This document shows positions 5,034 through 41,617 of a stretch of 64,000 nucleotides of DNA, one piece after another. The stretch comes from Kocuria tytonis (GTDB taxonomy: Bacteria; Actinomycetota; Actinomycetes; Actinomycetales; Micrococcaceae): the NCBI RefSeq assembly GCF_003226895.2, contig NZ_PNJG02000002.1:434001-498000 (forward strand). Reading direction: 5' to 3'. Every line of letters begins with the position of its first letter. Position 1 is the first letter of the stretch. The notes beneath the pieces are model-generated. The model had not been told where the DNA came from and searched no databases. It worked only from the letters and a program-made list of their open reading frames with translations. The translations under genes were made by a program, and so were the position numbers.

Positions 5034-5049
5034 CGTTTCACGTGAAACA
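5034..5049. other. parS: parS site (one mismatch), outlying
   Basis: CGTTTCACGTGAAACA matches the actinobacterial ParB-binding consensus TGTTTCACGTGAAACA in 15 of 16 positions, including the whole 12-bp palindromic core. It lies between divergent PAP2 and ROK genes, about 26 kb from oriC and 32 kb from the parAB cluster of sites. Confidence 0.8.
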
Positions 5050-37956: not shown

Positions 37957-38041
37957 GCCCGCTGAAAATTCTCCGAACGGGATCGTCTCCGGGCGATCCC
38001 CAAGACGGTTCCCGTGGGTGTTAGCCGGTGACAAGAGTGTG

Positions 38042-38071
38042 GCCCCGATGTTTCACGTGAAACATCGGGGC
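38042..38071. terminator. parS: parS embedded in the parA terminator
   Basis: A perfect 30-bp palindrome with a full-consensus parS (TGTTTCACGTGAAACA, 38049-38064) at its centre, flanked by GCCCCGA / TCGGGGC arms and followed by TTTTCT. It looks like an intrinsic terminator for parA and a ParB loading site at once. The 307-base parA-parB gap holds nothing else clear. Confidence 0.85.
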
Positions 38072-38263
38072 TTTTCTCATGGGTGCGTTTGGGTTCAGGG
38101 GACCCACCAGGATCGCAGTCCCGGACTGCAGCGAGCGGCGCGAGGGACCACCTGTTGCCGCAGGGCGGCGCCGAGTCGACGTCGGGCGGACGGAGGGCAA
38201 CGCGCTTGGTCCACCAGGGACCCGACTACGATGGAGACCACTGTCAGCTTGTGAAAGGACACC

Positions 38264-40246
38264 GTGGTGGTTGAACGTCGTAGAGGTCTTGGACGCGGGC
38301 TGGGAGCCTTGATCCCCAGCGGTGAACCGCAAGCCACTCCGGAGCGTGGCGATCGGGCAGAGGAGCCAAGCGATTCGCGGGCCACCCTTGCTGCCGAGGC
38401 CCGCACTGTGCCTTCTCGCCCGGTTCGTCGTGCGACGGCAGGGGCTGGGACGGTCTCTCCCCGGACGTCTGGCGAGTCCACATCCACGGCGAACGGCAAT
38501 TCCGAGGTGCTGCCGCTGGAGATGCCGGACCGGGCCCCCCAGGACGGCAAGGGCAGGCCGAGGCGGCGGGCCGGGCTTCGCACGGATGATGGTTCGGACC
38601 GTGAACTGGAGAGGCCAATACATGAGGTACGTGGGCCGCGTTCCACGGACACGGCACCGGACGATAGGTCCTCCAGGACGAAGCGCTCGGCATCGCGCAA
38701 GAAATTTGCCGCTGGCGACAGGGGCGGGGACGAGGCATCCCCTGAAGCCCCCATGCGTGATCGTGCGCATGTTTCACGTGAAACATCCTCCAAGCGCGGC
38801 AGTAAGACCCGCAGCACGGGTGCCGGCACGGGACGCGCCCGTCGCGACATGGGGCAAGCCCTTCGCAGCACCACGACGGTGAGCCGACCCGTGGACATGT
38901 TCTTTCTGCCTTCGACGTCTGAAGAGGATGCACCCCATCCCGGCGACGCAACGGGTGCCGTTCGCAACGAAGCGCCAGCGGCGCGTGAAGCGCATGTGGA
39001 GCGGCAAACCCCGGTCGCTCACGAGGTGAACGCCTCCCCCGCGCATGATCGCTCAAAGAAACCTTCCTCCAAAGCAGCCGACGCGTCTGCTGCGGATCAG
39101 GGAGGATCAGCACACCGCCCTGCATCACGATCCGAGAAAGAGCGGCAAGGGCACGGGGCTCCTACACACGGCGCCGACGATACGGGCCACCATGTTTCAC
39201 GTGAAACATTGGCCGATCTCGAGACGCAAAATCCACTGCGCAACGGCGGTGAAGCCCAATTTCGTGCCTCCGAAACCAACGCTTACACTCGTAGCGCCGA
39301 TTCTCACGTGGAGAGCGGGGTGTCTGCACCGGGTTCGCGTCCCGAAGAAAGCCTGCCGTTGGGCACCGAAGAGGATCGGACGCCCACAACGGCCAAGGAC
39401 CAGGACGCCGACCTGCAGGCCGTCCCCGGGGCATCGTTCGCCGAACTGGCCGTGAAGGACATCCACCCCAATCGTAAGCAGCCACGACAGGTCTTTGATG
39501 AAGACGAACTGGCGGAACTGGCTTTCTCAGTGAAAGAGCTGGGTGTGCTTCAGCCGATCGTGGTGCGCCCCAGCCACGGTGACGGGCCCGAGAAGTACGA
39601 ACTGGTCATGGGTGAGCGTCGATGGCGGGCGGTTCAGGAGGCCGGCCTCTCCAGCATTCCCGCCATCATTCGGGACACTGCGGACAACGACCTCCTGCGT
39701 GACGCACTCCTCGAGAACCTCCATCGGGCGCAGCTGAATCCGTTGGAGGAGGCCGCGGCGTACCAGCAGCTCATGGAGGAGTTCGGGGCCACCCAGGAGC
39801 AGCTGTCGGAGCGCATCGGGCGCTCCCGACCCCAGATCTCCAACACCCTCCGGCTGCTGCGTCTTCCGGCGCTGGTGCAGCGCAGGGTAGCCGCCGGTGT
39901 CCTCAGTTCCGGCCACGCCCGGGCCCTGCTGGCCCTCTCCGATCCGGCGGACATGGAACGCCTGGCGCAACGGATCGTGGCGGAGGGCATGAGCGTGCGA
40001 GCCACGGAGGAGGCCGTGGCTCTGTCGGACGGACTCAAGAAAGGGACGACCAAGCGCAAGGCCCCGGCGAGCCGGCACGACGACCGTCTGGGCTACATCG
40101 CCGATGCGTTCTCCGACAAACTGGAAACGAGTGTCAAGATTCAGCTGGGAGCACGGAAGGGCAGAATGACCATCGAGTTCGCCTCGGTGGAGGATCTGAA
40201 CCGCATCATCGATGTTCTGGACCCCAAGCTGGACACCGATTCCTGA
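38264..40246 (+). CDS. parB: Chromosome partitioning protein ParB with long insertion
   Basis: A 660-residue protein, about twice the usual length (300-400). It begins with the ParA-contacting motif RRGLGRGLGALIPSGE. A hydrophilic, low-complexity, Arg/Ser/Glu-rich segment of about 370 residues follows. The conserved ParB domain starts near 391 (FAELAVKDIHPNRKQPRQ), with the CTP-binding GERRWRA at about 450, ENLHRAQLNPLEEA, and the helix-turn-helix QLSERIGRSRPQISNTLRLL. The C-terminal dimerisation domain ends at 660. Two parS sites lie within the linker, each coding HVSRET. GTG 38264 follows GAAAGGAC; GTG 38267 is possible. Confidence 0.95.
   Translation: MVVERRRGLGRGLGALIPSGEPQATPERGDRAEEPSDSRATLAAEARTVPSRPVRRATAGAGTVSPRTSGESTSTANGNSEVLPLEMPDRAPQDGKGRPRRRAGLRTDDGSDRELERPIHEVRGPRSTDTAPDDRSSRTKRSASRKKFAAGDRGGDEASPEAPMRDRAHVSRETSSKRGSKTRSTGAGTGRARRDMGQALRSTTTVSRPVDMFFLPSTSEEDAPHPGDATGAVRNEAPAAREAHVERQTPVAHEVNASPAHDRSKKPSSKAADASAADQGGSAHRPASRSEKERQGHGAPTHGADDTGHHVSRETLADLETQNPLRNGGEAQFRASETNAYTRSADSHVESGVSAPGSRPEESLPLGTEEDRTPTTAKDQDADLQAVPGASFAELAVKDIHPNRKQPRQVFDEDELAELAFSVKELGVLQPIVVRPSHGDGPEKYELVMGERRWRAVQEAGLSSIPAIIRDTADNDLLRDALLENLHRAQLNPLEEAAAYQQLMEEFGATQEQLSERIGRSRPQISNTLRLLRLPALVQRRVAAGVLSSGHARALLALSDPADMERLAQRIVAEGMSVRATEEAVALSDGLKKGTTKRKAPASRHDDRLGYIADAFSDKLETSVKIQLGARKGRMTIEFASVEDLNRIIDVLDPKLDTDS
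38770..38785. other. parS: parS site within parB (1)
   Basis: A perfect TGTTTCACGTGAAACA inside the long ParB linker, in the frame that encodes HVSRET. Confidence 0.92.
39193..39208. other. parS: parS site within parB (2)
   Basis: A second perfect TGTTTCACGTGAAACA in the linker, again encoding HVSRET, 423 bases from the first (a multiple of three, so the same frame). Confidence 0.92.
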
Positions 40247-40250
40247 TCCG

Positions 40251-40310
40251 GCGCATGAGAAGCGGGCCGCGATGTTTCACGTGAAACATCGCGGCCCGCT
40301 TCTCATGCGC
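40251..40310. terminator. parS: 60-bp perfect palindrome containing parS, between parB and cwlM-like gene
   Basis: A loopless perfect inverted repeat of 30+30 bases centred at 40280/40281, with consensus parS (40273-40288) in the middle. It starts 5 bases after the parB stop and ends 30 bases before the stop of the convergent cwlM-like gene, so it can terminate both transcripts and load ParB. The outer arms read GCGCATGAGAAGCGGGCCGC. Confidence 0.9.
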
Positions 40311-40339: not shown

Positions 40340-41617
40340 TCAGGGGTGCTGACGGTAGTACATCTGAATGTCCGCCAAGCTCATGGCCCCGGTGGCCGTG
40401 GACTCCGGAGCGGGTGCCAGCACCCGCTGCAGTCCACAGATGAGGGACTCGGCGAGACGGGCCCGATAGGCGGGGCTACGGAGCCGCACGGCCTCCGCAG
40501 GATTGGACAGGTAGCCGAGGTCCACCCAGGCGGCAGCGGCGCCCGAGCTTCGGAGGGCGCTCCACTGCCGGGCGTGGCTCCCGAGATCCTGGGCACCGGT
40601 CCTGGCGACCAGTTCACGGAGGATCATGGCGGAGGTGAGCTGGCCGATGGGAGCGTACGGCTGTCCCGTCATCGGGGTACCCCAGAAATACGTGGCCACT
40701 CCCTGCGCCTCGGGGGAGCGGTTCCAGTCGCACTGCAGATAGAGCACCACGGCTCCGGGGTGCGCACGCAGGGCCGTTGCGGAATCCGCCATGGACCCCC
40801 GGAGCGCGCCCGAGTGCTCGGGGGCCGGGGCGACGGACGGGGTGCCGCTCTGGTTCCCCGGCGGTTCGGAGACGGGCTGGGTGTTTTGCGGGTCCGCTGC
40901 AGGATCGATCAGCACCGGTGCGGCCCCCACGTTGCGCAGCAGGTCGTACGCGTGCTCGGCCACGTCCATGGTGACGGCGTCCTGCTCGGTGGCGAACGAC
41001 CCCGGGGCGGATGCGGGCTCCAGCTGTGAGTTCCCGCGGGAAGGCACCAGAATCACGGCACGGTCCCGCAGGGCCTCGTGCAGCATCTCGAGCCGGTGGT
41101 AGTCCCGCAGTGAGAAGGCCTTCGAGGTGGTGATCTTCTTGCTGACGCGAGCCAGTCCGGTCAGGGTGTCGAGATCCACCACGCCGTCGTCCGGGAGACC
41201 CAGGCTGCGCTGCAGCTCCTTGATGGCGTACTCGGTCTGCTGATTGAACGTGGCGTTCGGATGTCCGTAGTAGAAACCCAACAGGGAGAGGTTGTTCTGC
41301 AGTTCTTCGACGTCGTCCCCGTGCAGCGGCTGGTCTTGCTGGTAGGACAGCGGCCGATCGCCCAGGGAGTACTGCGCGTCGTTGAGCGCCGCTTCGGTGT
41401 CGGGACCCACCACGCCGTCCACGATCAGACCCTTGTGCTGCTGGAAGCCGCGGACGGCGTGGTCCACGGCGTCGTCGAACAGGGCGGCGTCGGCTGCGGT
41501 GTGCGGGTCCAGTGCGGAGTCCTCGGCGCCCGCTCGGACGAGGCGCTCCCTGAGCCCCACGACTCGTCGATCCGTCATGCCGTGCCGGAGAACAGCTCCG
41601 GGAGGGGGTTGCAGCAC
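40340..41617 (-). CDS. CwlM-like peptidoglycan-binding protein with degenerate amidase domain
   Basis: A 425-residue cytosolic protein with two N-terminal peptidoglycan-binding-type helical domains (about 12-80 and 95-150) and a C-terminal Amidase_3-like domain. Zinc ligands of active amidases look lost: the DPGHGG region reads LVPSRGN, the second His region reads YLQCDWNRSP, and the glutamate near VE-x-GF reads WVDLGYLSN. No signal peptide is present. The gene sits next to trxA/trxB and parB, exactly where mycobacteria keep cwlM, whose product regulates MurA instead of cutting peptidoglycan. A regulator of cell-wall synthesis is therefore likely. Start GTG 41617. Confidence 0.82.
   Translation of the reverse strand: MLQPPPGAVLRHGMTDRRVVGLRERLVRAGAEDSALDPHTAADAALFDDAVDHAVRGFQQHKGLIVDGVVGPDTEAALNDAQYSLGDRPLSYQQDQPLHGDDVEELQNNLSLLGFYYGHPNATFNQQTEYAIKELQRSLGLPDDGVVDLDTLTGLARVSKKITTSKAFSLRDYHRLEMLHEALRDRAVILVPSRGNSQLEPASAPGSFATEQDAVTMDVAEHAYDLLRNVGAAPVLIDPAADPQNTQPVSEPPGNQSGTPSVAPAPEHSGALRGSMADSATALRAHPGAVVLYLQCDWNRSPEAQGVATYFWGTPMTGQPYAPIGQLTSAMILRELVARTGAQDLGSHARQWSALRSSGAAAAWVDLGYLSNPAEAVRLRSPAYRARLAESLICGLQRVLAPAPESTATGAMSLADIQMYYRQHP

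Follow-up and report, generated by a model that had tools for sequence, protein, structure and literature searches.

Chromosomal ParABS systems use a parS site with the consensus TGTTTCACGTGAAACA, which is ordinarily a bare palindrome of 14-16 bp, often located in coding sequence. In mycobacteria, the same palindrome is reported to lie upstream of parB (PMC2346475). Intrinsic (Rho-independent) bidirectional terminators are GC-rich hairpins found between convergent stop codons, with T-rich tracts on both strands, and compensatory evolution has been described for those of Bacillus cereus (PMC5381666). The nearest precedent for the locus described here is the Neisseria DNA-uptake-sequence (DUS) terminator, in which a short DNA motif with a function of its own, present as an inverted pair, supplies the stem of a Rho-independent terminator (PMC2397512).

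The window, i.e. the whole stretch of 64,000 nucleotides of Kocuria tytonis DNA that was analysed, contains a palindrome that shares features with all of these systems. Its parS is an exact 16-bp match beside parAB with several copies close together, as in other chromosomal ParABS systems, but instead of being bare it sits at the apex of a long hairpin. In the same way, the hairpin lies between convergent stop codons, is GC-rich and carries putative T-rich tracts on both strands, and its arms show the compensatory pattern known from B. cereus. It differs from usual intrinsic terminators in its longer stem (28 bp), in the near-absence of G-U pairs in relatives and in an upper stem and loop whose sequence would be fixed as a predicted protein-binding site. 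While in DUS terminators the motif serves DNA uptake and two copies form the stem, here one copy of a palindromic centromere site makes up the apex, and the rest of the stem comes from extra arms. A terminator of the DUS type proper was rejected, since its motif needs very many genome copies and this genome has six parS sites, four of them exact and two with one mismatch, and all lie within the window. A literature search for parS within terminators, incomplete in coverage and thus unable to settle priority, found no description. It is highly probable that the palindrome is dual-coded, namely a bidirectional intrinsic terminator with a ParB loading site at its apex. In many actinobacterial genera, one short sequence would then be constrained twice, its DNA serving as a centromere and its RNA transcript as a terminator.

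Anatomy of the palindrome and its neighbours

The first-pass annotation had described a perfect, loopless 60-bp palindrome with a central parS between parB and a cwlM-like gene, and sequence, open reading frames and Pfam matches confirmed this description (Table 1). The two 30-bp arms (40251-40280 and 40281-40310) are 100% complementary without any spacer, and parS, which begins 27 bp past the parB stop codon, occupies the exact centre with 22 bp left on each side. The chance expectation for a parS match in the window is 0.02, even allowing up to two mismatches, and by our own arithmetic the chance that a given parS is flanked by 22 further matched pairs is about 1e-12 (0.286^22; local GC 0.69). 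In a 204-kb sample of this genome used as background for inverted-repeat lengths, these arms are the longest perfect inverted repeat, the runner-up having 19 bp per arm. No second copy of the palindrome sequence turned up when the genome collection was searched for an exact 56-bp match, an outcome expected if arm sequences are species-specific, and a plasmid search with the palindrome gave no match. At E<=1, Rfam matched the palindrome only with microRNA-precursor models, all under their gathering scores, as any perfect hairpin would.

Table 1. Features of the par locus, in window coordinates.
Feature	Position	Strand	Basis
parB, 660 aa, long N-terminal low-complexity insert; stop codon ends at 40246	38264..40246	+	ORF; Pfam ParB_N/HTH_ParB/ParB_C
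cwlM-like N-acetylmuramoyl-L-alanine amidase gene, convergent with parB; ORF ends at 40340	40340..41617	-	ORF; Pfam PG_binding_1/Amidase_3
60-bp perfect loopless palindrome, composite of parS and predicted bidirectional intrinsic terminator	40251..40310	.	sequence, RNA fold
parS (TGTTTCACGTGAAACA), hairpin apex	40273..40288	.	exact match
Core hairpin, 20-bp arms, kept in related species through compensatory changes	40261..40300	.	pairing and covariation
GAGAAG, putative T-rich tract (CTTCTC) for cwlM-like gene transcripts	40257..40262	-	sequence; mirrored position in relatives
CTTCTC, putative T-rich tract for parB transcripts	40299..40304	+	sequence; TTC/TTTC/TTTTT here in relatives
Second predicted composite, parA-parB gap: parS 38049-38064 in 30-bp perfect palindrome, then TTTTCTC	38041..38078	+	terminator scan call, fold -31.2 kcal/mol
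parS within parB coding sequence, armless	38770..38785	.	exact-site scan
parS within parB coding sequence, armless	39193..39208	.	exact-site scan

As RNA, the palindrome with its flanks is predicted to fold at -69.4 kcal/mol on the forward strand and -62.8 on the reverse strand (z -12.3 and -10.0), and either transcript would form a 28-bp stem with the four-base loop ACGU. The hairpin is centred 34 nt beyond the parB stop codon, with a GC-rich stem that is stable in the predicted fold. In DNA, identity to the parS consensus suggests that a ParB dimer would load at the double-stranded central 16 bp, independently of termination. In RNA of both directions, the parS half-sites and the ACGU loop would cap the GC-rich inner arms to make an intrinsic terminator hairpin. 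A polymerase exiting parB would transcribe the palindrome, and the RNA hairpin together with the T-rich CTTCTC would promote release; from the opposite side, the same hairpin would end transcription of the amidase gene. Selection would hold the arms complementary for termination and the centre for ParB. As parS is itself a perfect palindrome, it would provide a ready-made hairpin apex, so that little extra non-coding DNA would be needed.

A bidirectional terminator had also been proposed in the first-pass annotation, and this prediction agrees with the convergent genes, the GC-rich stem, the mirrored GAGAAG/CTTCTC and the compensatory arms of relatives. Some features count against the composite. 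The T tract is weak in Kocuria, the only T-rich stretch after this stem being CTTCTC, which lies within the arm, and a pattern-based terminator scanner gave no call here yet called the hairpin of the parA-parB gap. Moreover, the 28-bp stem exceeds what termination needs and the outer 10 bp of each arm are unconserved.

The hairpin in the parA-parB gap has a counterpart in many relatives, and it implies that parB probably has its own promoter or depends on partial read-through past this composite. The ParB of this genome falls in the range of 503-704 aa found in Kocuria, while nearly all those of other genera have 318-503 aa; the length of Kocuria ParB is due to the low-complexity insert, which follows an N-terminal motif. 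This insert carries parS sites that read HVSRET in frame. The codon-based gene caller clips the N-terminus of ParB, and parB was therefore treated separately. A one-mismatch parS was also observed at window positions 5034-5049; it is some 33 kb away from parAB, and the stretch around it looks AT-richer and may be non-coding.

Conservation and covariation of the hairpin in Kocuria

The parB/cwlM-like intergenic region was compared in 26 other Kocuria species, and all 27 genomes, this one included, had a hairpin there. Its apex is an exact parS in 14 of them and a parS variant in 5 (19/27 together). Three of these variants are TGTTCCACGTGGAACA, a symmetric form, one is mixed and one has a single change; TGTTCCACGTGGAACA is the reported Pseudomonas parS and, save one end base, that of Myxococcus (PMC7022226). 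In G001, 2 bp are missing from the parS centre and both arms are intact. The remaining seven genomes carry a hairpin with a different apex, wholly different in G004, G010, G018, G020 and G023. In G004, G018, G021 and G023, parS directly follows the other-apex hairpin, for which its GTTTC would form the T-rich tail (GGCCGTTTCACGTGAAAC). As other apexes occupy the same place, the constant part appears to be the terminator, with parS as a frequent guest.

In the sister species G010 and G011, the apex of the putative parB/cwlM terminator is TGTGA-N6-TCACA, a CRP/GlxR-like palindrome (L122:8345-8360 and L123:9006-9021). Both species have a second TGTGA-N6-TCACA site about 4 kb away, and none was seen in the loci of other genomes examined up to then.

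The covariation set comprised 19 orthologous parS-apex hairpins of Kocuria, whose changes were mapped by parsimony on the ParB-gene tree. Within arm pairs 9-18, one Watson-Crick pair had been replaced by another in 23 cases (two-sided changes), against 3 breaks and 1 change to G-T. Paired cells amounted to 97.1% vs 82.2% in shuffles, a share biased somewhat upward because the hairpins had to pair at no fewer than 14 of 18 positions, i.e. at least 14. Covariation reached 0.437 vs 0.134 in shuffles and two-sided cells 56 vs 15.1, and 0/500 shuffles attained the observed values for any of these measures. Arms that vary in relatives yet stay complementary had been named beforehand as the pattern to look for, and it was the one obtained. 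Compensatory changes also keep the stem complementary across genera, in sequences that were picked for long arms and hence are biased.

The same comparison bears on the origin of the palindrome. By chance or as an assembly artefact, such a structure is vanishingly improbable: an ordinary sequencing read spans more than 60 bp, hairpins with different arm sequences stand at the same place in 26 other independent assemblies, and the relatives already refute this explanation. The artefact for which the first-pass annotation had advised resequencing is thus very unlikely.

Pairing was found in 16-19 of the 19 species up to arm position 20 and in 9-13 of 19 past it. This drop to roughly half points to a conserved unit of about 40 bp, the outer 10 bp per arm here being a lineage-specific extension; perfect arms of 24-28 bp also occur in G005, G014, G015 and G022. 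It had been argued that retention of an unstable palindrome suggests selection, which is a weak argument at 60 bp, and relatives keep only about 40 bp.

The near-absence of G-U intermediates is unusual under selection on RNA only and counts against the composite, since in B. cereus terminators 89.5% of AU-GC switches pass via GU (PMC5381666). This scarcity is expected if both strands are used, because a G-U pair becomes A-C in the other transcript. It is equally expected under mutational growth, in which a palindromic parS would seed hairpin-templated (quasipalindrome template-switch) synthesis with one arm as template for the other, so that the arms would become perfect and change on both sides with no selection on RNA structure. 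Arm homogenisation of this kind is documented (PMC8604942; PMC7202029), the arms show more two-sided than one-sided changes with G-T pairs nearly absent, and arms longer and more perfect than termination requires would be accounted for. Template switching is therefore a plausible contributor to arm perfection and surplus length, and homogenisation by it may lie behind the near-absent G-U pairs. As the sole cause it is nevertheless unlikely, since it does not predict that a hairpin should stand at this place when its apex is wholly different, as in the five genomes named above.

Placement, composition and use of the arms

The arms of 470 exact parS sites in 97 loci were compared, long arms being defined by an arm score of at least 14. 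Long-armed sites made up 3/89 of those within parB, 33/60 just after parB, 12/35 just before it and 16/286 elsewhere. For non-coding sites, a gene 3' end was no more than 150 bp away in 55 of the 59 with long arms, compared with 47 of the 271 plain ones, with genes taken from a simple codon-bias caller. The difference held in Kocuria (26/26 long-armed vs 14/42 plain, p 6e-9) and in the others (29/33 vs 33/229, p 3e-17). In Kocuria, arm GC is 0.88-1.00 at positions 10-15 and then 0.34-0.50 at positions 17-19, for a locus GC of 0.67, and across the group T is enriched in the tails after parS hairpins (p 3e-12). Template switching predicts neither the 3'-end placement nor the GC-rich inner stem and the A/T tract after it, nor the T-rich tails, and neutral palindrome growth as the sole cause was rejected because of placement and composition. 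Together with stems that outlive parS and coding parS sites that lack arms, these features suggest that the arms belong to the terminator and not to ParB.

The arms could still serve ParB if a longer palindrome, or a cruciform or hairpin parS extruded from it, improved clamp loading or spreading. The exactly central, loopless position of parS would fit this, as would the location of the two longest-armed parS sites of this genome beside par genes. On the contrary, arm sequence is unconserved, stems survive destruction of the ParB site, and long arms are missing from most parS sites, those within parB of the same genomes included (86/89), so ParB would need no terminator features. This explanation is consequently very improbable. 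Of the ParB loading put forward in the first-pass annotation, the part that stands is loading at the central parS, as its sequence suggests; that the arms aid loading found no support, given the armless sites and the hairpins that outlive parS. Selection for cruciform extrusion, also put forward there, found no support, hairpins being kept where parS has decayed or is absent. The positive supercoiling expected between convergent genes and the GC-rich arms both disfavour extrusion. A functional cruciform was rejected, as pairing falls to about half past arm position 20 and long arms occur chiefly near gene 3' ends.

Under the dual-coded reading, ParB bound at the terminator apex might also alter termination, making it a ParB-responsive terminator or attenuator, which seems rather unlikely. 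If so, the parS hairpins after parA and parB would link ParB dose to expression of parA, parB and the amidase gene in a feedback, and transcription across parS would displace ParB or help to load it. Such loci are natural sites for asking how transcription and ParB loading interact. The composite also offers a reason why parS sites occur between convergent genes, and it calls for caution, since experimental editing of such parS sites may delete a terminator too.

Recurrence beyond Kocuria and other palindromes

Hairpins with a parS apex were also found after parB in Rothia, several Arthrobacter-group genera, Glutamicibacter, Sinomonas, Paeniglutamicibacter, Psychromicrobium, Isoptericola and Xylanimicrobium. 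In lower-GC relatives they take the textbook form of a terminator, for instance in Rothia (L035, AAAAACCCTCGG...CCGAGGGTTTTT), in Arthrobacter MYb229 (L044, stem then ATTTTTTTT) and in Psychromicrobium (L057). In four loci (L053, L054, L073, L104), the stem is unbroken and the parS core is altered at the central bases that would form the RNA loop. Of 197 genomes sampled across the class, 31 had such hairpins by a covariance-model search. Several large-genome relatives have two parS hairpins in a convergent intergenic gap, and the centre of each lies about 22-47 bp from one stop codon. Judged by these hairpins, the predicted combination of parS and terminator recurs across many actinobacteria, large-genome actinomycetes included. 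At L149, L150, L154, L157, L159 and L161 of large-genome relatives, paired long-armed parS palindromes 41-84 bp apart were observed between convergent genes, each close to a different stop codon.

Elsewhere in the genome under study, a further loopless perfect palindrome, GACGCCCCGGTTCACCATGGTGAACCGGGGCGTC, was found without parS (L140:18517-18550), and it is possibly another binding site serving as a terminator apex. Finally, an AT-rich inverted repeat, CATGACATACAAT-GTGCTAT-ATTGTATGTCATG, was observed at L144:10164-10196, whereas the terminators of this genome are GC-rich.
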